From contig JAJDBV010000018.1 of NCBI GenBank assembly GCA_029261165.1, positions 1-32,884 of the forward strand: 32,884 bases of DNA, written 5' to 3'. Source of the DNA: Nitrospirota bacterium (GTDB lineage: Bacteria > Nitrospirota > Nitrospiria > SBBL01 > JAADHI01). Made by a program: the position numbers and the translations under genes. Under the pieces are notes generated by a model that worked only from the letters and a program-made list of their open reading frames with translations, was not told the DNA's origin and made no database searches. Below are positions 6,018 through 31,684 of the stretch, one piece after another; positions within the stretch are counted from its first letter, which is position 1; every line of letters starts with the position of its first letter.

Positions 6018-6935
6018 TCACAATAGAGTGATTCGTTTTCCAAGCGATCTTCGCCGTTTGACCAAGCCAAAAATTTCCATAATGATTCGGAGCGCGGCAA
6101 AACTGGTGATATCGGAATGATCCAGTGGAGGGGAAACTTCGACCAGGTCCGCCGAGATGACCGGGAGGGAATCAAGGGCGCGAATCAAGGTCATCATATC
6201 GCGAGTGCTGAGGCCCCCGCCATCCGGGATACCGGTCCCTGGCGCAAAGGCCGGGTCGAGGGCATCAATATCGATTGAAAGGTAGACATTGGAAAGACCT
6301 TCGAAGCACTTGGTAATCTCACGGGTCACCGTCTGCATCCCCCGCTCGGCGATCTCATAAGCGGGAAAGACCTTCATCCGCTTGTCCTGGATGAACTGAA
6401 GTCCCTCCGTCTCAAAACAGCGGGTTCCGACCAGAACAGTCCATTCAGGGGAAAACTTTTCTTCCTCCATCGCGCGGCGCAATGGGCATCCGTTGGAGAA
6501 GGAAGACCCACGAAACTGATTGGAGAGATCAGTATGGGCATCAACATAGATCAGACCGACCTTCTCATTCGCCTGACGGTTGATCGCACGCAGAACCGGA
6601 ATAGAAACCGAATGGTCTCCCCCCAGCGTCAAAACAAAGGACGCGCCGACCCGCCTTGCAATCTCGTCCTGGATAAACGGGTGAGCAGCAACAAAATCTC
6701 CGGTCCACTGGAGGTTGCCACTGTCCCGAACCACAAGCCCCTTAAACACTTCCCCCGTTTCCAGGACAGGGGGGATTTCAACAGAGAGTGCCCGGATACG
6801 ATCCGGCGCCTCAGAAGCACCGGATCGATAGCAGGCTGCGCCATCATAAGGGATCCCGATGATTGAAACATCGGGGAGTTTTGTATCCGGACGGTTCAAT
6901 CCAGCCCATAATTGTTCCGAGTTGTACTGATCCAT
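6018..6935 (-). CDS. Agmatinase-like ureohydrolase
   Basis: Binuclear manganese (or nickel) hydrolase of the arginase/agmatinase superfamily, which releases urea from guanidino compounds. The 305-aa protein has the full metal-ligand set: GGDH (105-108), DAHTD (132-136) and IDIDALDP with Asp222 and Asp224. One thing is odd. The segment FSNGCPLRRAMEE around residue 148 normally reads SHG(T/S)PFRR, and the His at that place (equivalent to arginase His141) is Asn here. Agmatinase is the nearest name, but guanidinobutyrase, guanidinase or an unknown substrate remain open. The ATG has GAGGG seven bases upstream. It sits upstream of the aminotransferase, probably co-transcribed. A TATAAT lies at 6960-6965 on this strand, but no good -35 box accompanies it. 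Confidence 0.85.
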   Translation of the reverse strand: MDQYNSEQLWAGLNRPDTKLPDVSIIGIPYDGAACYRSGASEAPDRIRALSVEIPPVLETGEVFKGLVVRDSGNLQWTGDFVAAHPFIQDEIARRVGASFVLTLGGDHSVSIPVLRAINRQANEKVGLIYVDAHTDLSNQFRGSSFSNGCPLRRAMEEEKFSPEWTVLVGTRCFETEGLQFIQDKRMKVFPAYEIAERGMQTVTREITKCFEGLSNVYLSIDIDALDPAFAPGTGIPDGGGLSTRDMMTLIRALDSLPVISADLVEVSPPLDHSDITSFAALRIIMEIFGLVKRRRSLGKRITLL

Positions 6936-7056
6936 ATCCAGGCCCTCGTACCTCTTGTGATTATACTATTTTAGAGAGGGTGTTGGGTAGTTCGAAAACC
7001 ACGTGTGACGGCATCCGTTAGACGTATTGGGGAATACAAAAAAGAAAGCGGGTGGA

Positions 7057-7443
7057 TCAGATAATCCCAAACCCTCTTTTTCCAAAGGAGAAGGCATCAA
7101 ATGCCGAAATAATAAAAAGGAGGATATTAAATATCACACTTTTTGAAGAATACCCGGAAGTCATGTAGGCAAAAATTCCTCCAAAAAGGAAGAGAAAAGC
7201 CCTCGCATATTCCCGCACATAGAGGTGCCCCAGGCCCGCAAAGGCTAAGGAAAATCCCCCCGCAACCACTCCGCCCGGCACACCTTTCAAATTCGGAAAC
7301 CCGAAGAAGAAGAGGACGATCATAACGATGACGACCCCCTTCAATTCAATCGACATAATATTCGGAAGTCTCCAGTAAAAACCCGCGATAATGAGGGCGG
7401 TCATTCCTCTACGGACAAGATCCGGGAAAATTCTTTTAGTCAT
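7057..7443 (-). CDS. Small polytopic membrane protein, unknown function
   Basis: A 128-aa protein with about four hydrophobic segments: residues 14-30, 35-50, 57-75 and 80-115. The piece AGLGHLYVREYARAFLFL resembles the glycine-rich hairpin of TM2-like and DUF5683-like small membrane proteins (PGLGQ-type), a weak family hint only. No catalytic motif is visible. Its ATG lies inside the end of the leucine-dehydrogenase gene, an eight-base overlap (ATGACTAA), so translation is probably coupled. It looks like the last gene of the set starting at 9718. I would not assign a role. Confidence 0.72.
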   Translation of the reverse strand: MTKRIFPDLVRRGMTALIIAGFYWRLPNIMSIELKGVVIVMIVLFFFGFPNLKGVPGGVVAGGFSLAFAGLGHLYVREYARAFLFLFGGIFAYMTSGYSSKSVIFNILLFIISAFDAFSFGKRGFGII

Positions 7444-14591: not shown

Positions 14592-16652
14592 ATGAAGAGT
14601 CTGTGGTCAGACCGTGAAGCAAGGAAAATATCGGGGGTAGACCTCGTGGTCTATACCTCAAGATTGATTGGGGCCAATCCGAACCTGGTTCTTTGGGGAG
14701 GAGGTAATTCTTCGATAAAAGTTGATGGAACAGATCACAAGGGCCTGCCCGCGCGAATCCTCTGGATTAAAGGCAGCGGGTCGGATATGAGAACCATCGC
14801 CCCGGAAAACTTCACGCCACTTCGTCTTGACGACCTCCTCCCCCTGATGAAACGAAAGGCAATGAGCGATGAAGAAATGGTGAATTACCAGTTAAAATCT
14901 GTTTTGGAACCCAAAGCCCCAAAGCCGTCGATTGAAACCCTTTTGCATGCTTTCCTACCCGCACCCCACATTTATCACACACATGCAGACGCAATATGCG
15001 CCCTGACGGACACCACAAACAGCCGAAAGATTGTTGAGGATGTCTACGGCCAGGAAGTCGCAGTTGTTGATTACATCCGTCCCGGGTTTCTCCTCTCAAA
15101 AGGGGTTTCTCATGCTTATCAGAAGCATCCCGGTTTGCGCGCGATTATCCTCGACAAACATGGCCTCATCACGTGGGGAGAGACCGCCAAAGAAGCCTAT
15201 GATCAAACCATCCGGATGGTCTCCGCGGCAGAGCGGTACGCCGCACGAAAAAAGCGGGGAAAACAGGCCATGGGTCCCCTTCAGGTCAAGCCGCTCGCGC
15301 GTAAAGAACGCCATAAGGCTGCCGCCGCCCTCGTCCCGGTATTACGCGGTGAAGTCAGTCAGAACAAGCGCATGATCTTCCAATTTGATGATTCTCAAAA
15401 AGTCCTGACCTTTACCGGATCAACAGAAGCCAAACGTTTGACGCAGATTGGCCCCTTTACGCCGGATCATCTCCTCCACACAAAACCATGGCCGCTCTTC
15501 GTCAAGACCAAGGATCCTCGGAATACGGCAGGTCTCATTTCTGAAATTAAGAAGGCATGTGAAGCCTATAGAGAACGCTCTGTCAAATACTTCAATCGTT
15601 ACAAAACACCTGGCGTCACGATGCTCGATCCGAACCCGCGCATCATCCTGATTCCAGGCATCGGGATGTTTACCAGCGGGAAGGATCGACGTGCGGCCGG
15701 CATCACGCGTGACCTCTATCTTCATACGATGGGCGTGATCGAAGCCGCAGAGGCGATTGACGGATACCGGTCGATCCCGACACGGGAGATCTGCAACTTT
15801 GAGTACTGGCCGATGGAAAACTATAAACTGACCCTTCTCCCGCCTGAAAAGGAGTTTTCCAGAAAAGTGGTTCTGATCACCGGCGGCGCCGGGGCGATCG
15901 GCCGCGCAATAGCTGAATCATTTGTGGAAGCGGGCGCCTCCGTGATTTTAACGGATATTCAGTTAGAAAAAGCCGACGCGGCGGTCGCAAAAATAAACGC
16001 CAAGACTGGAGGAGAACAGGCGGTCGCCCTTGAGATGGATGTCACCAATGAGAAGAGCGTCCGCTGCGGTTTTGAAACTGCCGCCCTTTACTTCGGCGGG
16101 CTTGACATCTTTGTTTCGAACGCGGGGATTGCTCGATGCGCAGCTGTGGATCAATTATCCCGTAAAGACTGGGAGGCATCCATTGCCGTCAATGCAACGG
16201 GCCATTTTCTAACATCGAGAGCGGCATTGCAAATCATGAAGGCTCAGGGGCTTGGCGGCGCCATCGTCGTCGTCGCGACCAAGAACGTCCTGGCACCCGG
16301 AAAAGATTTTGGTGCCTATTCTGCGTCCAAGGCCGCCCAGGCACAACTTGCCCGGATTATGGCCATTGAAAATGCCCAGGCAGGAATTCGCGTGAATATG
16401 GTGAACCCGGACGGGGTCTTCGAAGAATCCGGGCTTTGGTCAAAAGAAATCAGGGAAGAACGTGCTCAGGCCCACCAAGTCTCACTTGAAGACCTGGAGG
16501 CCTTCTACGCCAGGCGGAATCTCCTACAAACCCGAATAAGCGCCATGGATGTCGCCCAATCCGTCCTCTTCCTCGCCTCCGACCGGGCCGCTAAAACAAC
16601 AGGCGCCATTCTGCCGGTCGATGGCGGAGTCAAAGAGGCCTTCCCGCGCTAG
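14592..16652 (+). CDS. Bifunctional class II aldolase / short-chain dehydrogenase (RhaD-RhaE type)
   Basis: Two-domain enzyme, 686 aa. Residues 1-about 225 form a class II aldolase: GGGNSS near 36, SIET with a probable catalytic Glu115, the zinc pair HTH (129-131) and DKHGLITWG near 189. Residues about 425-686 form a short-chain dehydrogenase: GGAGAIG (431-437), SNAG (509-512) and YSASK (Tyr576, Lys580), with VDGG at the end. The middle 200 residues are the linker domain typical of this family. Close relatives are rhamnulose-1-phosphate aldolase/lactaldehyde dehydrogenases, which split a deoxyketose phosphate and oxidise the lactaldehyde. No rhamnose isomerase or kinase is nearby, so the sugar is uncertain. 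The usual SDR serine position appears to be Thr563. GGAGAGGG precedes the ATG. It is convergent with the diguanylate cyclase, with 21 bases between stops and no terminator. Confidence 0.88.
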   Translation: MKSLWSDREARKISGVDLVVYTSRLIGANPNLVLWGGGNSSIKVDGTDHKGLPARILWIKGSGSDMRTIAPENFTPLRLDDLLPLMKRKAMSDEEMVNYQLKSVLEPKAPKPSIETLLHAFLPAPHIYHTHADAICALTDTTNSRKIVEDVYGQEVAVVDYIRPGFLLSKGVSHAYQKHPGLRAIILDKHGLITWGETAKEAYDQTIRMVSAAERYAARKKRGKQAMGPLQVKPLARKERHKAAAALVPVLRGEVSQNKRMIFQFDDSQKVLTFTGSTEAKRLTQIGPFTPDHLLHTKPWPLFVKTKDPRNTAGLISEIKKACEAYRERSVKYFNRYKTPGVTMLDPNPRIILIPGIGMFTSGKDRRAAGITRDLYLHTMGVIEAAEAIDGYRSIPTREICNFEYWPMENYKLTLLPPEKEFSRKVVLITGGAGAIGRAIAESFVEAGASVILTDIQLEKADAAVAKINAKTGGEQAVALEMDVTNEKSVRCGFETAALYFGGLDIFVSNAGIARCAAVDQLSRKDWEASIAVNATGHFLTSRAALQIMKAQGLGGAIVVVATKNVLAPGKDFGAYSASKAAQAQLARIMAIENAQAGIRVNMVNPDGVFEESGLWSKEIREERAQAHQVSLEDLEAFYARRNLLQTRISAMDVAQSVLFLASDRAAKTTGAILPVDGGVKEAFPR

Positions 16653-22440: not shown

Positions 22441-22869
22441 TTGGAGAGCAACATCGAAGCGGTACGTCTGGCCAATGATGCCTTTTATCAGGCCTTTAAG
22501 AAGCTCGACATTCAGGAAATGGAACGCCTTTGGTCAAGGGAGGATTATGTCAAGTGTGTCCACCCGGGTTGGGAAGCACGTCTTGGCTGGAAGGAAGTTC
22601 GGGATAGCTGGGTTCTCATCTTTAATCATACCTACGAGATAAAATTTTCAGTCGATGTCCTCGATGTTACCGTGAATGGCGAGTGGGGCTGGACCCTTTG
22701 TGTAGAGCAAATCTCTACACAAGACCAGGGAAAATGGGTTACGGGAAGGGTCATCGGAACAAACCTTTTTGAGCGCCGGGCTGGACAATGGCTCCTCATC
22801 CATCACCACGGGTCCCCTCAGATCACGATTGAAGAAAAAGAACCGGATGAGTCCTCAAATGGCCACTAG
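22441..22869 (+). CDS. SnoaL-like / DUF4440 (NTF2-fold) protein
   Basis: A 142-aa NTF2-fold protein, cytoplasmic. The layout fits SnoaL-like/DUF4440 proteins: a helical start (ANDAFYQAFKKLDIQEMERLW), then VKCVHPGWEARLGWKEVRDSW and strands through GRVIGTNLFERR to a final QWLLIHHHGSP. Such proteins bind small hydrophobic or polyketide-like ligands, and most in bacteria are uncharacterised; no reaction is claimed. The start codon is TTG at 22441, with AGGAGG five bases upstream. It lies 29 bases before a MITE that separates it from the following same-strand genes. Confidence 0.82.
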   Translation: MESNIEAVRLANDAFYQAFKKLDIQEMERLWSREDYVKCVHPGWEARLGWKEVRDSWVLIFNHTYEIKFSVDVLDVTVNGEWGWTLCVEQISTQDQGKWVTGRVIGTNLFERRAGQWLLIHHHGSPQITIEEKEPDESSNGH

Positions 22870-23063: not shown

Positions 23064-23888
23064 ATGGGACGGATACAGGAAATTGCTTTTTTAGTCTTCG
23101 GGCAACTTGCCGTCGGAGGTATTTTCTTGTTGGCACTTCCTTCATTAGAGACGGTCGGCCTCGGATTCTTTAGAACCAATGGGATTGTCTTTCTCCTCTG
23201 CATTCTTCTTGGCATGTCACTATTTCCGATTCCTTTGTCAGAATGGACCATGACGACGTTTCAGTTCAATTGGACCGGGATGATTTTTCTTTTTTTCTTT
23301 CTTTTCGTCCTCACTCTTTTTGTCTACAATCTCCGTCTCTGGTTTCGAAACCCGCATCATAGCCGACCACTTCTCTTGTCGGCCTCTCTTCTCGGTGCCT
23401 TTGCGATCCTGGCCAGCGTCGGATACTATCTTCCCCAGCCATCCGGCGTGATCCGCGTGCTCTCCCTGTCAGCCCAGTTTCTGTCCTCCAGCCTCCTGAT
23501 GGGCGCAGGTGTGCTGGGGATGCTGTTGGGCCACAGCTATCTCACCCGTCCCTCGCTTTCAATTGTCCCGCTTCGAAATCTTGCAAAACTGTTCATGGTT
23601 TTTGTGTTTCTGGAAGCCGGACTCACCCTGGTAAGTCTCGTTGTTCTGGTCCCTCCTCAACGCTTGAAAGACGCCCTGCTGATCAATACAATTGAAGGGC
23701 TTTATCTCTGGATTCGGCTATTAATCGGAATCGTGGGGCCGGTTATTTTAGCGCCGATGATCCTCGAAACGGTCAAGGAACGGGCCACAATGTCTGCAAC
23801 GGGCTTACTGTACGTGGCGATGATGATGGTTATTATTGGGGCCATCTTCTCCCGTTTTTTCTTATTGGTCGATGCAACTTTTGTATAA
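23064..23888 (+). CDS. Polytopic membrane protein, unknown
   Basis: A 274-aa protein with about eight membrane helices and short loops. The loop WFRNPHHSRP and the segment LGHSYLTRPSLSIVPLRNL (around 165-183) stand out: His and Tyr at a helix end, followed by a polar Pro-rich turn. They look like a conserved functional site, but I cannot name the family. No signal sequence or soluble domain. The ATG lies just two bases beyond the MITE target duplication, with only TAAGG as a possible ribosome site, so expression may depend on the MITE end or a later start. The cupin follows after 15 bases. A membrane anchor of a redox complex is one speculative option given the oxidase nearby. Confidence 0.7.
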   Translation: MGRIQEIAFLVFGQLAVGGIFLLALPSLETVGLGFFRTNGIVFLLCILLGMSLFPIPLSEWTMTTFQFNWTGMIFLFFFLFVLTLFVYNLRLWFRNPHHSRPLLLSASLLGAFAILASVGYYLPQPSGVIRVLSLSAQFLSSSLLMGAGVLGMLLGHSYLTRPSLSIVPLRNLAKLFMVFVFLEAGLTLVSLVVLVPPQRLKDALLINTIEGLYLWIRLLIGIVGPVILAPMILETVKERATMSATGLLYVAMMMVIIGAIFSRFFLLVDATFV

Positions 23889-23903: not shown

Positions 23904-24227
23904 ATGCAGGTATTTGATATTGAGAAAATGAAGACCTTCTCGACGGAAAAGATGAAAAAGGTCAAAATGTTTGACTCTGAACACATGTTTTGTGATCTGT
24001 ACTGCTTTGAATCCGGCCAATCACAGAAGACACACCTCCACGAAGGGGAAGACAAAATTTATTATGTTCTGGAAGGAGAGGGTCTGTTTCGCATCGGCGA
24101 TGAGGAGATCTGCGTGCGGCATGGATCAGCAACGATGGCAAAAGCAGGGGTCATCCATGGCGTGATCAATCAGTCGAGAAACCGTCTGGTCGTATTGGTC
24201 TTCATGGCACCAAAACCGGTACACTAA
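23904..24227 (+). CDS. Single-domain cupin protein
   Basis: A 107-aa small β-barrel. Cupin motif 1 is HLHEGEDKIYYVLEGEG (about 52-68), with two His and a Glu placed as metal ligands, and motif 2 is AGVIHGVIN (about 85-93) with the fourth ligand His. A metal-binding cupin is therefore expected; the ligand or reaction is unknown. The N-terminal 30 residues are Lys/Met-rich (EKMKTFSTEKMKKVKMF). GGAGG lies nine bases ahead of the ATG, in the 15-base gap after the membrane protein gene, so the two are co-transcribed. The CbiC-like gene follows 106 bases later. Confidence 0.85.
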   Translation: MQVFDIEKMKTFSTEKMKKVKMFDSEHMFCDLYCFESGQSQKTHLHEGEDKIYYVLEGEGLFRIGDEEICVRHGSATMAKAGVIHGVINQSRNRLVVLVFMAPKPVH

Positions 24228-24333
24228 AGAACCTGATCCCGAAAGATCGGAGATTCAATGCGAATGCCGTCCGGAGATGGAAATCCACCCTGACTTGGAA
24301 GGTCGTCTTCGGCAGGTCAAAAAGGAGATTGCA

Positions 24334-24951
24334 ATGCCGCATCAATCTGAATCGCGTCAAGCGTCAACACGACAGATCATTGAAAAAGAAATGGGTTCAC
24401 ATGCCTTCAGCCCGAACCAGTTAGAGGTTGTAAGAAGTGTGATCGCCGCAACGGCCGACTTTGAGTTTTCCGAATCGATGACCTTTCATCCTATTGCAGT
24501 GGAGACCGGAATGGCGGCAATGCGTGCCGGCGCCGATATCGTAACGGACATCCAAATGGTTGAGGCTGGCATTCCAAAGAATCTGGTGGCTAAAACCGGC
24601 GGAAGCGTCTGGTGTTTTATCTCGGACAATGACGTACTTGAAAAAGCAAAGGACCTCCGTCTTCCACGAGAGGTCATTGCAATGAGAAAAGCGGCCGAAG
24701 AGTGTGAAGGCGCCATCTATGTGATCGGGAGTTCTTCCGAAGCACTCTCCGAACTCATCCGTCTGGTTCAGGACGGGTCCGCCAAGCCATCACTGATTGT
24801 GGGCGTTCCCGTCGGGTTTCATGCCGCATCTGAATCAAAGGAAAAGCTCCTCAATATTTCAAAACCGTTTATTACCTGTCGGGGCCGAAAGGGAGGCAGT
24901 CTTGTGGCCGTAGCAATTATCGAATCCCTTTCATCTTTAGTAATTCATTAG
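24334..24951 (+). CDS. CbiC/CobH-like protein lacking the catalytic His
   Basis: Homologue of precorrin-8X/cobalt-precorrin-8 methylmutase, which moves a methyl group on the corrin ring to give hydrogenobyrinate or cobyrinate. The 205-aa length and conserved GVPVGF, ESKEKL, GRKGGS and TDIQMVEAGIP fit the family. The catalytic His (CobH His43, in VIHTTADF-type motifs) is Ala here: VIAATADFEF, Ala38, codon 24445-24447. The TRSAAA-type segment is also altered (AMRKAAEE). It is therefore unlikely to be a normal methylmutase and may bind another tetrapyrrole. No other cobalamin gene is in view. The frame extends to 24277, but AAAGGAG sits six bases before the ATG at 24334, which gives the family length. 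Confidence 0.85.
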   Translation: MPHQSESRQASTRQIIEKEMGSHAFSPNQLEVVRSVIAATADFEFSESMTFHPIAVETGMAAMRAGADIVTDIQMVEAGIPKNLVAKTGGSVWCFISDNDVLEKAKDLRLPREVIAMRKAAEECEGAIYVIGSSSEALSELIRLVQDGSAKPSLIVGVPVGFHAASESKEKLLNISKPFITCRGRKGGSLVAVAIIESLSSLVIH

Positions 24952-25067: not shown

Positions 25068-26474
25068 ATGGCAGACCAAAAGATCCTAGACGCGCAAAAA
25101 ATTCTGCTTCAGCATGAAGGTCCCATTGAAACGTTGGAGGATTACCTCGCGATCGGAGGTTTCCAGGCGCTCAAAAAAGCCGTGACAATGACCCCGATGC
25201 AAATCATTAATGAAATTAAAAAATCATTTCTGAGAGGCCGTGGCGGCGCGGGTTTTCCCGCGGGGATCAAATGGGAAGGGGTGCATCGGAACAACGACAC
25301 CATATTGGGACGCGCCCCTCAGAAATATCTCGTGTGTAACTGTTCAGAAGGGGAACCAGGCACCTATAAAGACCGCTACCTCATCCAAAAAAACCCCTAT
25401 ACCCTCATCGAAGGGATGATCATCGCTTCCTACGCTATTGGCACTGTCGATGCGATGATCTGCATCAAGGAAATTTTCAAGAAGGAAATTGCCATTCTGG
25501 AGCGGGCCATTCAGGAATGTGTTACAGCCGGATACGTGGGTGAAAATGCGATGGGTTCTGGCCATAATCTCCCACTTAAACTGACGTTTGGCCCCGACTC
25601 CTACCTCCTGGGGGAAGACCGCGCGCAGCTGGAAGTCATAGAGGGAAAACCACCCTGGCCGCGTGCGAAGGGTATCATTCCTGTCTATGTCGGGCTTTAT
25701 GGACAACCAACGGTCGTGAACAATGTTGAAACACTTGCCACGGTCCCCCACATCCTCCGTAAAGGAGCAGATTGGTTTAAATCAATCGGCACGGCCGATA
25801 CCCCGGGGACCATGATTTTCACCCTCACGGGCGATATCAACCGCCCCGGCATGTATGAGCTTCCGATGGGGACCCCCTTGCGCACCTTGATTGATGTTTA
25901 CGGTGGCGGACCGAAGATGGAACGGCATGTGAAGGTCGTCTTTTCAGGACCCACAAATTCTGTCATCCCGGCCAGTAAGCTCGACACCCCTCTCGATTTC
26001 GGATCCATGCGGAAAATACCCTCCGGCCTCGGTTCGGGCGGCTTCATCGTTTTAGACAATACGGCTTGTGTCCTCAAGGCAGGCCTGGATTTTGCGAAAT
26101 TTCTTGCGATTGAGTCCTGCGGTCAATGCTCCTCATGCAAAACAGGAACAGGCCGGATTGCCCGCGGCCTTGAGCTACTGGAAGAAGGACGCGCAACTGA
26201 AGAGACCGTCCTGGCCATCCTGGAGGACTGTGAACATATCAAAGGGTCAGGACATTGCTATCTCTGTACTGAACCGGGTCTTGAAATCGGTAGCATCTTG
26301 CACCATTTCCCGAATGATGTCATTGAACACCTCGAATACGGCTGTCTAAAAGACCGGCATCTTGTGATGCCGAAGATCAAGAGCTTTGATGAAGCAACAA
26401 ATACCTTTACCTTTGATGAAGGCTACTTCGACCGATGTCTGTCTGATGGGAAGCTGATCAATTACCCTGGTTAA
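25068..26474 (+). CDS. Stand-alone NuoF-like flavoprotein (NADH dehydrogenase 51-kDa subunit family)
   Basis: FMN and 4Fe-4S protein of the NuoF/HoxF family, 468 aa, expected to take electrons from a nicotinamide nucleotide. Visible are the FMN loop GRGGAGFPAG (57-66), EGEPGTYKDR (94-103) and the N3-cluster cysteines Cys351, Cys354 and Cys357 in ESCGQCSSC, plus Cys397 in GHCYLC, at the usual spacing. The segment that in NuoF reads GEETALLESLEG is GEDRAQLEVIEG here (182-193), so residues near the nucleotide are changed. No NuoE thioredoxin-like domain is fused, and no NuoE, NuoG or other complex I gene is beside it. It has its own promoter; GGAG lies 11 bases before the ATG. It is followed, behind another promoter, by the cytochrome bd-like oxidase. 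Confidence 0.9.
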   Translation: MADQKILDAQKILLQHEGPIETLEDYLAIGGFQALKKAVTMTPMQIINEIKKSFLRGRGGAGFPAGIKWEGVHRNNDTILGRAPQKYLVCNCSEGEPGTYKDRYLIQKNPYTLIEGMIIASYAIGTVDAMICIKEIFKKEIAILERAIQECVTAGYVGENAMGSGHNLPLKLTFGPDSYLLGEDRAQLEVIEGKPPWPRAKGIIPVYVGLYGQPTVVNNVETLATVPHILRKGADWFKSIGTADTPGTMIFTLTGDINRPGMYELPMGTPLRTLIDVYGGGPKMERHVKVVFSGPTNSVIPASKLDTPLDFGSMRKIPSGLGSGGFIVLDNTACVLKAGLDFAKFLAIESCGQCSSCKTGTGRIARGLELLEEGRATEETVLAILEDCEHIKGSGHCYLCTEPGLEIGSILHHFPNDVIEHLEYGCLKDRHLVMPKIKSFDEATNTFTFDEGYFDRCLSDGKLINYPG

Positions 26475-26544
26475 GCCGACAGAAACTTCACAAGGCCCGG
26501 CTTCCTGGTATCCTCATGAATGTCTGCTCAGCCCTCCAAATCGC

Positions 26545-26574
26545 TTGACACCTTTCCCCCTCAGTCGGTATGAT
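26545..26574 (+). promoter_or_regulatory. σ70-type promoter of the cytochrome bd-like gene
   Basis: TTGACA (26545-26550), 18-base spacer, TATGAT (26569-26574), expected start near 26581. The ATG is at 26605, with AAAGG six bases upstream. Both boxes are close to consensus, so independent, fairly strong expression is expected. Confidence 0.75.
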
Positions 26575-26604
26575 TATTTTTACTCGTAAAGACAAAGGCA
26601 TATC

Positions 26605-28518
26605 ATGGTTTGGCATCAACAGTTTTACAGACTTTCTGCGCCGCTTTTCGCGGCGTTTCTCATTCTCTCCCTGGTCATCTCATCCGACCTGAGTCATGCT
26701 TCCGAGGCAGACCCATCCTTTCAGGAAAAGACCCCCTCCAATCCGCTGACTGATATTTATCTAGGAACAGAGGGTGTTATTTCGGGTCCGCCTGCGCCGG
26801 TATTGTCCTACCCGGACAGCTACGGAGGCGGGAGGCGGATCGACAGCCGCTCCGTCCTCTGGATATTCATCCAGCAACATTTTTTCCTGGGAAGTTTTAT
26901 CCTCGGTGTTCCCATGATCGCCTGGATGTTGGAATGCTTCGGTTTCTTCCGAAAAAGGAGAGCAGACCCTCCTGAAAAACATGATCAACTCGGTCGGGAT
27001 ATCATGCAGATCTGCCTCCCCTTTTATCCTTTGACGCTTATTACCGGTCTCGCTCTTCTCGGAGCATTTCTCTTTTTGTATTCGGAGTTCTCTAAATACA
27101 TGTCTTCGGTCTTCAATCCGGTGATCGCGCTTTATGCCGTCGTTTTTTTTATCGAGACTCCTTTGCTCTACGCCTATGCCTTGACCTGGAACCGGTGGAA
27201 GCAGGGCCGGCTGAAGTGGCTTCATTTCGGCCTTGGCGGCCTGACCTGCCTCAATGGATTGGCGATTATCTACCTTGCAAATGCCTTGATGGCTTTCATG
27301 ATGTCGCCGTCCGGAGTTAACGAAAAGGGAGCCTACCTGGGAAACATCTGGAACGCGGTCAATACCCCTCTTTGGAATCCGCTCAATGTCCACCGGATTC
27401 TGGCCAGTATCATGTTCAGCGGGGCCGTCCTCGCGGCCTACGCGGCGTATCAGATGCTCACCACACGTGACCCGGAGAAAAAAGCCCATTATGACTGGAT
27501 GGGACATGTCATGATCATGATCTCCATCGCCAACCTCTTTATTCTCCCCTTTGCCGGATACTGGTTCGCAAAAGCGATCTTCATCTATCGTCAACGGATG
27601 GGCATGACCTTAATGGGCGGTAAGCTCAGTTGGCCTTTTGTGATGCAGGCGACGCTGATCGGACTGATCTTCATGACAGTGACCTACTACCTCTGGCGAG
27701 GGACGACCCGGATGCAGGGGGCCGAGCGGTACAACCACCTTGCAAAGTACATGATGATTGTTTTTACCATCGCCTTCATGATCTGGATCACACCGCACAC
27801 CATTCCCGCCAGCCAAGGAGAGATTCAGGCCATGGGAGGCGCACAACATCCGATTGTCGGATATTATGGAACCATGGCGGCCAAAAATACAGCCATCAAC
27901 ACAATGATCTTAAGCTTCGGTATCTGCTTCATCATCTTTAAACGCTGCAACAAGCAGATGACGATTACATGGTCAAAGTGGGGGAATACGGCGATGATCT
28001 CTCTCTTTGCGATTGCGGAGGGTTTCATCATCTACTACGGGGTCTACGGATTTTTTGTCCCGGCCAACATCAGGGTGAACCTGGCCCGTCCGCAATTTCT
28101 TGTCACCATGGGCGCACTCGTCATCGGGGCAGTCCTAAATGGGGTGATGCTCAAAAAATCGGAGTCCATCGGGCCGATTCAATGGGGGAAACTCCCCCTG
28201 GGCGGGGCGATTTCCATCTTTTCGCTGGCCGTCTTTATTTCGACAACGATGGTGTTGATGGGATACATCCGCTCGTCGGTCAGGCTTGATTGGCATGTCA
28301 CTGAAGTCTTAAAAGACACGACCCCCTGGGCGGGGACCCCGACCCTCACTTATGCCATTGGCATGGTGCTATTAAATGTTGTACTCTTTTGGATCATTAC
28401 CATCTTCATCTTTCGATCTGGAAAAACGCGTAGGATGTCTGCCTTCTCCCTTCAACCTGATGCCGTGGGTCCAAATGCCGAGGGGAAGGAGATGCCCTCG
28501 GAGTTCATCCCAAAATAA
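26605..28518 (+). CDS. Cytochrome bd-like oxidase subunit I, long single-subunit form
   Basis: CydA-related heme membrane protein, 637 aa, versus about 450-520 for ordinary CydA. Residues 12-33 form a signal-like segment (ending SHASEA), followed by about 50 polar residues, then some 14 membrane helices. CydA landmarks can be aligned: His92 in IQQHFFLG, FFIETP with Glu184 (the CydA FFLEST glutamate), NALMAFMMSPSG near 226 (the CydA NGWMQNPIG loop) and His263 in NVHRILAS. Further His stand at 207, 301, 378, 398, 415 and 564. No CydB, CydX or assembly gene is adjacent, and extra C-terminal helices are present. Nitrospira-type cytochrome bd-like oxidases share this plan, from memory. Oxygen reduction is likely but not certain; some such paralogues may use other acceptors. 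Confidence 0.85.
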   Translation: MVWHQQFYRLSAPLFAAFLILSLVISSDLSHASEADPSFQEKTPSNPLTDIYLGTEGVISGPPAPVLSYPDSYGGGRRIDSRSVLWIFIQQHFFLGSFILGVPMIAWMLECFGFFRKRRADPPEKHDQLGRDIMQICLPFYPLTLITGLALLGAFLFLYSEFSKYMSSVFNPVIALYAVVFFIETPLLYAYALTWNRWKQGRLKWLHFGLGGLTCLNGLAIIYLANALMAFMMSPSGVNEKGAYLGNIWNAVNTPLWNPLNVHRILASIMFSGAVLAAYAAYQMLTTRDPEKKAHYDWMGHVMIMISIANLFILPFAGYWFAKAIFIYRQRMGMTLMGGKLSWPFVMQATLIGLIFMTVTYYLWRGTTRMQGAERYNHLAKYMMIVFTIAFMIWITPHTIPASQGEIQAMGGAQHPIVGYYGTMAAKNTAINTMILSFGICFIIFKRCNKQMTITWSKWGNTAMISLFAIAEGFIIYYGVYGFFVPANIRVNLARPQFLVTMGALVIGAVLNGVMLKKSESIGPIQWGKLPLGGAISIFSLAVFISTTMVLMGYIRSSVRLDWHVTEVLKDTTPWAGTPTLTYAIGMVLLNVVLFWIITIFIFRSGKTRRMSAFSLQPDAVGPNAEGKEMPSEFIPK

Positions 28519-28523
28519 CGACA

Positions 28524-28552
28524 AATTGGTGTTAGTTAAAAAACCACCAATT
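28524..28552. terminator. Possible shared hairpin between convergent genes
   Basis: AATTGGTG and CACCAATT, eight-base perfect arms with a 13-base loop, spanning the end of the peptidase gene six bases after the oxidase stop. There is no T-run behind either arm, so termination in either direction is only a possibility. Confidence 0.35.
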
Positions 28553-31500
28553 CCATGATTTAGGTTCCGGCACATCCTCCGGATACAAGGTCGAAGAGAG
28601 CGGATCAGGGCGGGAAGCCAGATTTTCCACAACTTCCTTGGCCACCTTGACCGCCTTGACCAGACCCGCTTTGTCGATCTTATCAACCGTGTCTGAAGGA
28701 CGATGAAAATCAGGGGTCTTCCCACTCGATATTTGGACGGCCGGAATTCCGACATCAGTGAAACTCTTTTGATCGCTTGAACCGATTTCATTCGAATTCG
28801 TCTCAATCGGCACCCCGGCCTTAAAACCGGCGTCCCTGAACATTCGAGTCCACTCCCGTGCCGAACCGGTACCGTAAATAATCATATCTTTCTCTCCCAA
28901 TCGGCCGACCATGTCAATGTTCACCATCCCGAAAATTTTATCTGCCTGAAATGGCTTTGGATAGGCGGCATAATGCTTTGATCCAAGCCGGTCCATTTCC
29001 CCGGCGGCAAAGGCAACAAAGACCACGGGCCGTTCAAGCGGCCCTCCTTTTGCCAGGACCCTGGCGAGTTCCAACAAAACAGCAATACCGCTCGCGTTGT
29101 CGTCTGCACCCGGATGGATCTCGCCCTCGTTTCCTTCATGGCCCTCCATCCAACCAAGTCCGAGATGGTCATAGTGGGCCCCGACAATAATCCCTTGATC
29201 CGACCACTCCGCTCTGGATCCGGGAATAAAACCGATCACGTTTTTTAGAGAAACCGGACTTCCCACACCGTCACCTTTTTCTCTCCATATCTGGATATAG
29301 CTCGCTTCGATATCTCCGGCCGATTTCAGCCCCGCTTTCCGGAAAGCCTTGGAAATAAAATCTGTAACCAGATCCGACTCCGGCATTGAAAAACCCCGCC
29401 CTTTCAAAGTACGGTCCGTCATAAAATGGATCTCTTTCATCATCTGGGTACTTGAAACAACAGAAGGCAATTTGGCCAAAGCATGCCGGGGAGGGAGTAA
29501 GCCTCGTGCCCTCCGCCTCGTCTTTCCGCCATCCGTCTGTTTAACCCTGACCGAGATCGGGGAACGTTTGACCGGCCATTTTCCTTTCACAACATTGATC
29601 GGATCTTTCCCCTTAAAGGCAAGATAGCCATATCGTCCGTAGTGTTGAAGTTTTCTTCCCAAGCTGGCCAACGATGCCGGATTGTCCACGGCCATCCAGG
29701 CCAAGGTAAGTTTTTTATCCCCTGGATGGCGCGCGGCGAGAACAAGGCTATGGCCTCTGCGGGGAACCTGAATCCGGTCAATTCGGGCCATGGCACTCGT
29801 CATCACAAGGTTGTATCTCCTTAACTGCGCCAGCGCCTTGTGCTGGAATCTGTTTTCCCAGCCGAGGAGCCAAACAGCACGGTCGTCCGGCAGCGCATCA
29901 ACCTCATCGTCCCATTTTATTTCAACCTCCCCTTGATGAGACATTTTCCACGTGTGTGCCAAGCTTTGGTATGCGCGTCGTACCCTTTCGCGCGCCGTTG
30001 CAGGCAGAAGAATGACGACAGACTTCGCGCCAAACATCTGAGAAATAGACGGTGGTGCCTCTTCAGGGTCTAATCTCCGAAAGAGATCGTATTCCGGGTC
30101 AAGATCAAGGTGTAGAGGTCTTGCCGGGAGTTGGAGTGACAGATCAAGGGTCTTATTCGTCATTAAAACGGTCGTCTGGTATGCTTCTTTCCGGCCCTCA
30201 AGTGTCACAGCAATTGGGAGTTGGAGTCGATAAGGTGCCCCGCTCTGCCTCTGCCTGATCGTTGCAGTCAAGACATAGCCTTCTCCTTCCTCATTTTTCT
30301 CTGCTTTCGCACGCCTGACCTGCAAGCGAGGCGCACCGGGCCGGGTCACCCACTGATTAAATTCAAAATCTAGATCCAGCCCGGAGGCACGACTGAACGC
30401 ATGTTTAAGGTCGGTGAATGAGGCCCGTCTAAACTTATTTTCATGAAAGAATGTTTGCAATGCCTCGATGAAAATCTCGTCGCCAACTTTAAGTCTCAGC
30501 ATGTGAAAAAAATGCATCGTCTTTCCGTAGCCAACAGCTTGTGAAGCGGCATCGACCCGCCCTTGGAACTCCATGAGCGGGAAATCCTTTCCCGCTGTCA
30601 CATAATCTGCATATTTTTGCAGCGAAGCATGCCGGGACGCCTTCCCTCCCCCATGTTGTTCCTGTATGAGATAATCTGCCAGATATGCCGTCAATCCCTC
30701 GCTCCAGTTACCGGTCTCCCGGTCAACATAGACACCGTTTCCCCACCAATTGTGTAAAATCTCATGGGGATAGGAGGAGTGTAAAATAAATGGAAATCGG
30801 ATGATCTTTGAGCCCAGAAGCGTAAAAGATGGCATCCCGTAACCTGTTTCCCAAAAATTTTCAACCAGGGCAAACTTTGAGTAGGGATAGGGACCGAGCA
30901 ATTTCTCATACATTTCAAGGTATTGTTCCGTTACCTCTAAATATTTCTGTGCCAATTCAGGGTCCGGTGTTCTGAGAAAGACCATGGCGACCACCTTTCC
31001 CGCCTGCCGAAGGTATTCATGCCATTCCCCCGCAACAAGATAAATCTCCTCCTGCGGCTCAGATGATACCCAGCGAACGCGGACAAGGTTATCTTCTCTG
31101 ATGTATTCTTCTCTTCCCCCCTGACTGACCGCATTCCAGCCTTTCGGCAAAGTAAGGTCAAGGGAGAATGTGGTCATGTCAGCATAAAACCAGGGATACC
31201 AAAAGGTTTCACCCGAGAGAAAGACGCCTTCTGTCGCAATAATTCCAGGGGTTCCGGATGACCGGTCGGCATTCCCTCCTCCTGACATCAAGGGGTGGTT
31301 GATCTCGCCTTCATATGCCATGACAAACTGACGCAGTCCGATCGGAAGTTTCACCAGGTAGTGTTCCAAACGTACCCCTGCCTCCCCTCCCCCTCCACTC
31401 AGTCCAAACCCCAAAGGTTTCGGATCTTCCTTTTCATAGATGATCTTTACCCCGGCGGTCTGAGATACAGGCCGCAAACCCCTGTGAAGAAGAAAATGGA

Positions 31501-31684
31501 AATTCCCTTCCGGATCAGAGGAAATGGACCTTGGGAGGGTAATTGTATCTTCAACCTGAAGGTGATGTGTTTCAGGATTCAGGTTGACCTTTATTTCATG
31601 ATGAATGGTTTGCTGAGCTTTGAGAATGCCTGGGAACAAGGTCAGGATCGCAATGAGGGCAGACCGGAAAATAAAATCCTTCAT
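28532..31684 (-). CDS. Secreted M1-M28 metallopeptidase fusion
   Basis: Exported protein, 1050 aa, signal peptide 1-23 (ALIAILTLFPGILKAQ). An N-terminal β-rich region is followed by an M1 aminopeptidase core: GYGMPSF (281-287, in place of GAMEN), zinc motif HEILHNWW (His307, Glu308, His311) and Glu329 in NWSEG. A long region of about 400 residues then leads to an M28 domain. Its metal ligands are present: GAHYDH with His837, Asp861 in GADDN, Glu896, Asp924 in NIDMVG and His994 in DFHRPSD. The general-base Glu that normally precedes Glu896 (GEE-type motif) is Gly895, so the M28 half may not be catalytic. AGGAG lies seven bases before the ATG. It has its own promoter and is convergent with the oxidase. 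Confidence 0.9.
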   Translation of the reverse strand: MKDFIFRSALIAILTLFPGILKAQQTIHHEIKVNLNPETHHLQVEDTITLPRSISSDPEGNFHFLLHRGLRPVSQTAGVKIIYEKEDPKPLGFGLSGGGGEAGVRLEHYLVKLPIGLRQFVMAYEGEINHPLMSGGGNADRSSGTPGIIATEGVFLSGETFWYPWFYADMTTFSLDLTLPKGWNAVSQGGREEYIREDNLVRVRWVSSEPQEEIYLVAGEWHEYLRQAGKVVAMVFLRTPDPELAQKYLEVTEQYLEMYEKLLGPYPYSKFALVENFWETGYGMPSFTLLGSKIIRFPFILHSSYPHEILHNWWGNGVYVDRETGNWSEGLTAYLADYLIQEQHGGGKASRHASLQKYADYVTAGKDFPLMEFQGRVDAASQAVGYGKTMHFFHMLRLKVGDEIFIEALQTFFHENKFRRASFTDLKHAFSRASGLDLDFEFNQWVTRPGAPRLQVRRAKAEKNEEGEGYVLTATIRQRQSGAPYRLQLPIAVTLEGRKEAYQTTVLMTNKTLDLSLQLPARPLHLDLDPEYDLFRRLDPEEAPPSISQMFGAKSVVILLPATARERVRRAYQSLAHTWKMSHQGEVEIKWDDEVDALPDDRAVWLLGWENRFQHKALAQLRRYNLVMTSAMARIDRIQVPRRGHSLVLAARHPGDKKLTLAWMAVDNPASLASLGRKLQHYGRYGYLAFKGKDPINVVKGKWPVKRSPISVRVKQTDGGKTRRRARGLLPPRHALAKLPSVVSSTQMMKEIHFMTDRTLKGRGFSMPESDLVTDFISKAFRKAGLKSAGDIEASYIQIWREKGDGVGSPVSLKNVIGFIPGSRAEWSDQGIIVGAHYDHLGLGWMEGHEGNEGEIHPGADDNASGIAVLLELARVLAKGGPLERPVVFVAFAAGEMDRLGSKHYAAYPKPFQADKIFGMVNIDMVGRLGEKDMIIYGTGSAREWTRMFRDAGFKAGVPIETNSNEIGSSDQKSFTDVGIPAVQISSGKTPDFHRPSDTVDKIDKAGLVKAVKVAKEVVENLASRPDPLSSTLYPEDVPEPKSWNWWFFN

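Follow-up and report, generated by a model that had tools for sequence, protein, structure and literature searches.

The question raised by this locus is what a protein of the CbiC/CobH family does when the histidine on which methylmutase catalysis depends has been replaced. The window, which is the whole stretch of 32,884 nucleotides that was analysed, was found to contain the gene cbiC2 (24334-24951, forward strand), encoding a CbiC/CobH-family protein of 205 amino acids with rewritten active-site positions. The ATG at 24334 was preceded by a ribosome-binding-site-like AAGGAG (24322-24327, forward strand, read directly from the sequence) lying 6 nt upstream. The translation contained no internal stop, and the normal length and lack of frameshift decay proposed in an earlier sequence-only reading were thereby confirmed. 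The protein matched the Pfam family CbiC (PF02570) with an E value of 1.3e-62 and 211 bits (cut-off 22.5) over profile positions 6-194 of 196. No other Pfam domain was found in it, and a MerR DNA-binding domain was absent. Solved CbiC/CobH structures were matched in a sequence search with E values down to 7e-41. The protein scored below the NCBIfam equivalog cut-offs, and so did the canonical CbiC of a cbi operon (L014).

The likeness to the CobH/CbiC methylmutases (PF02570; PDB 1f2v, 4au1, 2afr) was found to extend to full-length homology, length and predicted fold, and the motifs PVGF, ESK and GRKGGS were common to both; the retention of GVPVGF, ESKEKL and GRKGGS, which had already been pointed out, was seen in the protein. 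The methylmutases contain the catalytic histidine, whereas the window protein contains alanine and is altered also at Ser12, Arg35, Thr111 and the NAPT loop; it differs further in its gene neighbourhood and in belonging to a genome without a detected corrin pathway. The AlphaFold model, built from a three-sequence alignment, was of modest quality (pLDDT 73), and its weakest parts were residues 159-165, which include His163, and 183-187, both near the expected ligand loops. A Foldseek search of this model against the PDB at E<=0.001 returned no matches other than CbiC/CobH structures and the CobH-like domain of the regulator CoaR; the top matches were all CbiC/CobH, with TM values of about 0.75-0.78 for this modest model. 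The window protein is thus predicted to have a CobH-type fold.

A canonical reference set of 96 distinct CbiC sequences from across Nitrospirota was aligned with the window protein and the proteins nearest to it. The catalytic histidine was present in 96/96 of the canonical sequences. In the window protein Ala38 (codon GCC, 24445-24447) was aligned with His43 of P. denitrificans CobH (1f2v), so that the earlier statement of a histidine-to-alanine replacement was correct. Altogether 9 of the 27 canonical-invariant columns were found to differ (I8R, E9Q, S12T, R35S, H38A, T111P, N133S, P135S and T136E), while a maximum of one invariant column was changed per sequence when the canonical sequences were left out one at a time. 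Residues other than His43 are also ascribed roles in the ligand site of CobH. The altered positions included Thr12 (24367-24369) for the serine found in all 96 canonical CbiCs (CobH Ser17), Ser35 (24436-24438) for the invariant arginine (CobH Arg40) and Pro111 (24664-24666) for the invariant threonine (CobH Thr115), followed by SSSE (24730-24741) where the canonical CbiCs have the NAPT loop. A new histidine, His163 (24820-24822), was present immediately 3′ of the PVGF motif, where the canonical CbiCs contain V (97%) or I; all of these codons lie on the forward strand. Among CbiC/CobH sequences of the PDB, the His, Ser and Thr were found in each of the six whose alignments to the window protein were compared; one of these six, 1ou0, contained Lys at the invariant-Arg position. 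Sequencing error was rejected as the source of Ala38, because two or more substitutions are needed to turn CAC or CAT into GCC and eight further invariant positions were altered as well.

The proteins nearest to the window protein were found to be the second CbiC copies of five Candidatus Manganitrophus genomes (G011, G013, G014, G015 and G017), with 55-58% identity; G017 is the chromosome CP114561.1 and G015 is SCUR01000444.1, and the other three were placed in the genus by a common genus code (g7). In the maximum-likelihood tree these five copies and the window protein formed a clade, here called CbiC2, with a support of 100/98, in which the window branch had a length of 1.08. The clade is narrow within Nitrospirota: across 396 sampled genomes of the phylum CbiC2 scored 408 and 378 bits and all other CbiCs scored at most 258 bits, and among the order's 18 genomes six carried CbiC2. 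The Manganitrophus copies, for example that of CP114561.1, share with the window both the clade and the gene order. All five contained S12G, R35Q, M75T and T111P, the window protein having Met75 where they have threonine, and His was present in four of them and Tyr in one (G015), in contrast to the Ala of the window. Ser12, Arg35 and Thr111 were therefore absent from 6/6 members. The other CbiC2 proteins have V or I in place of His163, and the change of NAPT to SSSE, with other changes, was confined to the window copy. Two motifs of the CbiC cleft, PVGF and KGG, were kept in every member.

A canonical cbiC was also present in 4 of the 5 Manganitrophus genomes with CbiC2, whereas the window genome contained none; the remaining one, G011, had CbiC2 only and resembled the window genome in this respect. 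The canonical gene stood apart from CbiC2, and in the genome that was inspected (L034) it formed part of a cbi operon. On plasmid-labelled records it was found at 26510-27073 of CP114562.1 and at 6499-7062 of CP114558.1, and CbiC2 was found on the chromosome CP114561.1. A tree joining CbiC2 with the canonical CbiC of Manganitrophus was rejected by the AU test (p 0.009), and with it an origin of CbiC2 as a recent duplicate of the cobalamin CbiC of that genus. A literature search found no paper linking Manganitrophus to cobalamin.

The idea that the window protein might belong to a His-less clade was not upheld by the tree, as His was kept in four of the five relatives and the clade was marked instead by S12G/T, R35Q/S and T111P. 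Judged from the aligned sequences, His appears to have been lost at least twice within CbiC2, to Ala in the window and to Tyr in G015, and its loss does not appear to have been the founding event of the clade. In the simplest history the change would have started before the loss of His, with Ser12, Arg35 and Thr111 gone from all members, and the His would then have become dispensable and been replaced twice. As four of the five relatives keep the His, those relatives might still be catalytic.

The window genome (2.9 Mb, 95% complete) was found to contain a single CbiC gene, that of the window, and the search for a second, canonical cbiC returned none. It contained only two TP_methylase genes, of which one, judged by sequence, encodes a SUMT/HemD-type fusion and the other a protein of RsmI type, and CbiD was not found in this 95% complete genome; the B12 makers of the same order contained 6-8 TP_methylase matches per genome. 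The genome also encoded B12-binding proteins, one of them MetH-like. The two non-corrin TP_methylases, the lack of CbiD and the MetH-like protein together indicate that the bacterium is probably a B12 user unable to build the corrin ring itself, the evidence for the absence of the pathway being strong, not absolute, at 95% completeness. The gene is thus not the only cbiC of a cobalamin-making genome, a case which had been held to speak against a new role.

A relic of a former cobalamin cbiC, drifting since the B12 pathway was lost and with the His-to-Ala change as one of many damaging changes, would fit the missing pathway, the long window branch and the changes seen in the window copy alone, such as SSSE. 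However, the window gene does not descend from the cobalamin CbiC of the order, and in the relatives CbiC2 was kept as a second gene beside an intact, separate cbi operon. The reading frame is intact, and the chance that 205 neutral codons remain free of stops is about 5e-5. Within the Manganitrophus CbiC2 proteins dN/dS was 0.08-0.21, the Tyr copy included; between these and the window pS was about 0.8 (saturated) and pN about 0.27, and the identity of 56.5% was close to the 58.9% found for canonical CbiC across the same two families, so that divergence was about equal to that of catalytic CbiCs. The CbiC2 clade is under purifying selection, also in genomes without a detected corrin-ring pathway. 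A constraint about that of a working CbiC, with the catalytic positions unconstrained, points to changed function rather than decay; decay is accordingly regarded as quite improbable, and CbiC2 very probably has a selected function. Since the fold family is kept, decay is not seen and neither the pathway nor a second cbiC was found, the window protein is very probably not a precorrin-8X methylmutase in this genome. The presence of a CbiC normally signals B12 synthesis, and the CbiC2 clade represents a conserved CbiC outside the pathway, so that annotation pipelines would wrongly credit such genomes with a B12 gene.

The gene had been described as standing alone. This holds for cobalamin genes, none of which lie nearby, but the gene was found in a conserved respiratory neighbourhood common to Manganitrophus. 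In the window the neighbourhood begins with a SnoaL_3-domain protein (22441-22869), followed by a predicted membrane protein of 274 amino acids (23064-23888), a small cupin (Cupin_2, 23904-24227), CbiC2, a NuoF-like protein with Complex1_51K, SLBB and NADH_4Fe-4S domains (25068-26474) and a cytochrome bd-like oxidase subunit I of 637 amino acids (26605-28518), all on the forward strand. The same order was found in the Manganitrophus loci L030-L032, in which CbiC2 likewise sits between the cupin and the nuoF-like gene. These related loci were obtained with the 274-amino-acid membrane protein as the query of the genome contigs; the window CbiC2 as sole query returned no related loci. In Manganitrophus CbiC2 and nuoF were separated by a gene for a eukaryotic-type carbonic anhydrase that runs on the opposite strand (L030, 10337-11257; L031, 8396-9211) and was absent from the window; CbiC2 therefore does not form an operon with nuoF in that genus. 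A promoter and terminator scan gave counts near the shuffled expectation. Other complex I genes were absent from the window around the NuoF-like gene.

In two genera of the same family (g2 and g3) the run of SnoaL, membrane protein, cupin and NuoF genes was intact and CbiC2 and the bd-like gene were missing from the locus. Orthologues of the bd-like gene were present in 18/18 genomes of the order and those of the NuoF-like gene in 17/18 (>=70% identity, own genome included). CbiC2 is therefore dispensable for the module, and co-occurrence of CbiC2 with the bd-like oxidase by genome was rejected, only the local arrangement being found to co-vary. The membrane protein gave no usable Pfam match even at E 10. 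It was found to be 72-74% identical to its Manganitrophus counterparts and to have more remote homologues in further families of Nitrospirota, and it is a candidate oxidase-associated subunit. In f11, another family of the Nitrospiria, two genomes had its gene downstream of a bd-like oxidase gene; in the one inspected, the two were separated by cytochrome c and EB_dh-type genes. These placements are suggestive only of a tie of the membrane protein, and by proximity of CbiC2, to the bd-like respiratory module; a functional link of CbiC2 to the module is put at slightly below an even chance. Several terminal oxidase complexes resembling cytochrome bd have been discussed for the Manganitrophaceae (PMC9040806), and the present locus was matched to none of those named.

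A precedent for a CbiC/CobH fold serving other than methyl migration, as proposed here for CbiC2, is provided by CoaR of Synechocystis. This MerR-family regulator responds to cobalt and carries a tetrapyrrole-binding domain that resembles CbiC/CobH; its response requires residues predicted for tetrapyrrole binding (PMC7689651). The CobH-like domain at the C-terminus of CoaR (PDB 8x33, 9ika, 9ikt, 9ipl) was found to match the window protein by sequence (E 4e-15) as well as by fold. CoaR is fused to a MerR DNA-binding domain, whereas CbiC2 is free-standing (205 amino acids) with about 23% identity, and no cobalt-efflux gene adjoins CbiC2, which is accompanied by respiratory genes instead. By analogy, CbiC2 plausibly works by ligand binding like CoaR, without the DNA-binding domain. 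CbiC-like proteins besides CoaR were not found described in a literature search. Tetrapyrrole binding, if true of CbiC2, would make it the second case after CoaR of the CobH fold being put to another use outside the pathway, here in a lineage with poorly understood respiratory oxidases.

On this evidence the window protein is considered somewhat more probably than otherwise a neofunctionalised, non-mutase CbiC paralogue, likely a tetrapyrrole-binding sensor or chaperone tied to the respiratory module. CbiC2 would keep the CbiC fold and ligand cleft, lacking the residues for proton transfer and for handling precorrin-8, and would bind a tetrapyrrole (heme or a heme precursor, a siroheme-type compound or a salvaged corrinoid) without rearranging it; its role would be that of a sensing or chaperone subunit linked to the neighbouring genes for the membrane protein, the NuoF-like protein and the bd-like oxidase. 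The chances that the ligand is a tetrapyrrole are about even. The new role deduced earlier from a kept fold and a lost acid/base thus retains its basis in the fold family and the missing pathway, but the change is not defined by the loss of His. A fuller version, in which CbiC2 is a free-standing, catalysis-less tetrapyrrole binder that supplies, or senses, a heme-type cofactor on behalf of the bd-like oxidase module in Nitrospirota related to manganese oxidisers, and represents an undescribed class of respiratory accessory proteins, is speculative and put forward as a minor prospect.

An enzyme of altered specificity, still rearranging or protonating a tetrapyrrole with another substrate or another acid/base such as His163, was also weighed; in B12-less genomes its substrate would come from salvage or from the heme/siroheme branch. 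The His of 4/6 CbiC2 proteins, the retained PVGF, ESK and GRKGGS core and the position of His163 right after PVGF in the window copy are in its favour, but members of the clade can do without the His (Ala, Tyr) and without Ser12, Arg35 and Thr111, and the usual CbiC/CobH substrate is apparently not made by the window genome, which renders this reading unlikely. A structural or regulatory protein acting without a tetrapyrrole, for example as a dimeric scaffold for the adjoining cupin, SnoaL or membrane proteins, would agree with the small binding proteins of the conserved neighbourhood and with the loss of ligand-site residues; the PVGF and KGG cleft motifs kept in every member are not obviously needed by a pure scaffold, and this explanation is held to be very improbable.

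Two further genes of the window were observed. The stretch 28532-31684 encodes a protein of 1050 amino acids in which an M1-type aminopeptidase-like N-terminal part followed by an M28-type peptidase-like C-terminal part was recognised by eye. At 14592-16652 a class II aldolase domain was found fused to a short-chain dehydrogenase (rhamnulose-1-phosphate aldolase/alcohol dehydrogenase-like), and the nearest cultured relatives of the genome carrying this fusion are chemolithotrophs.
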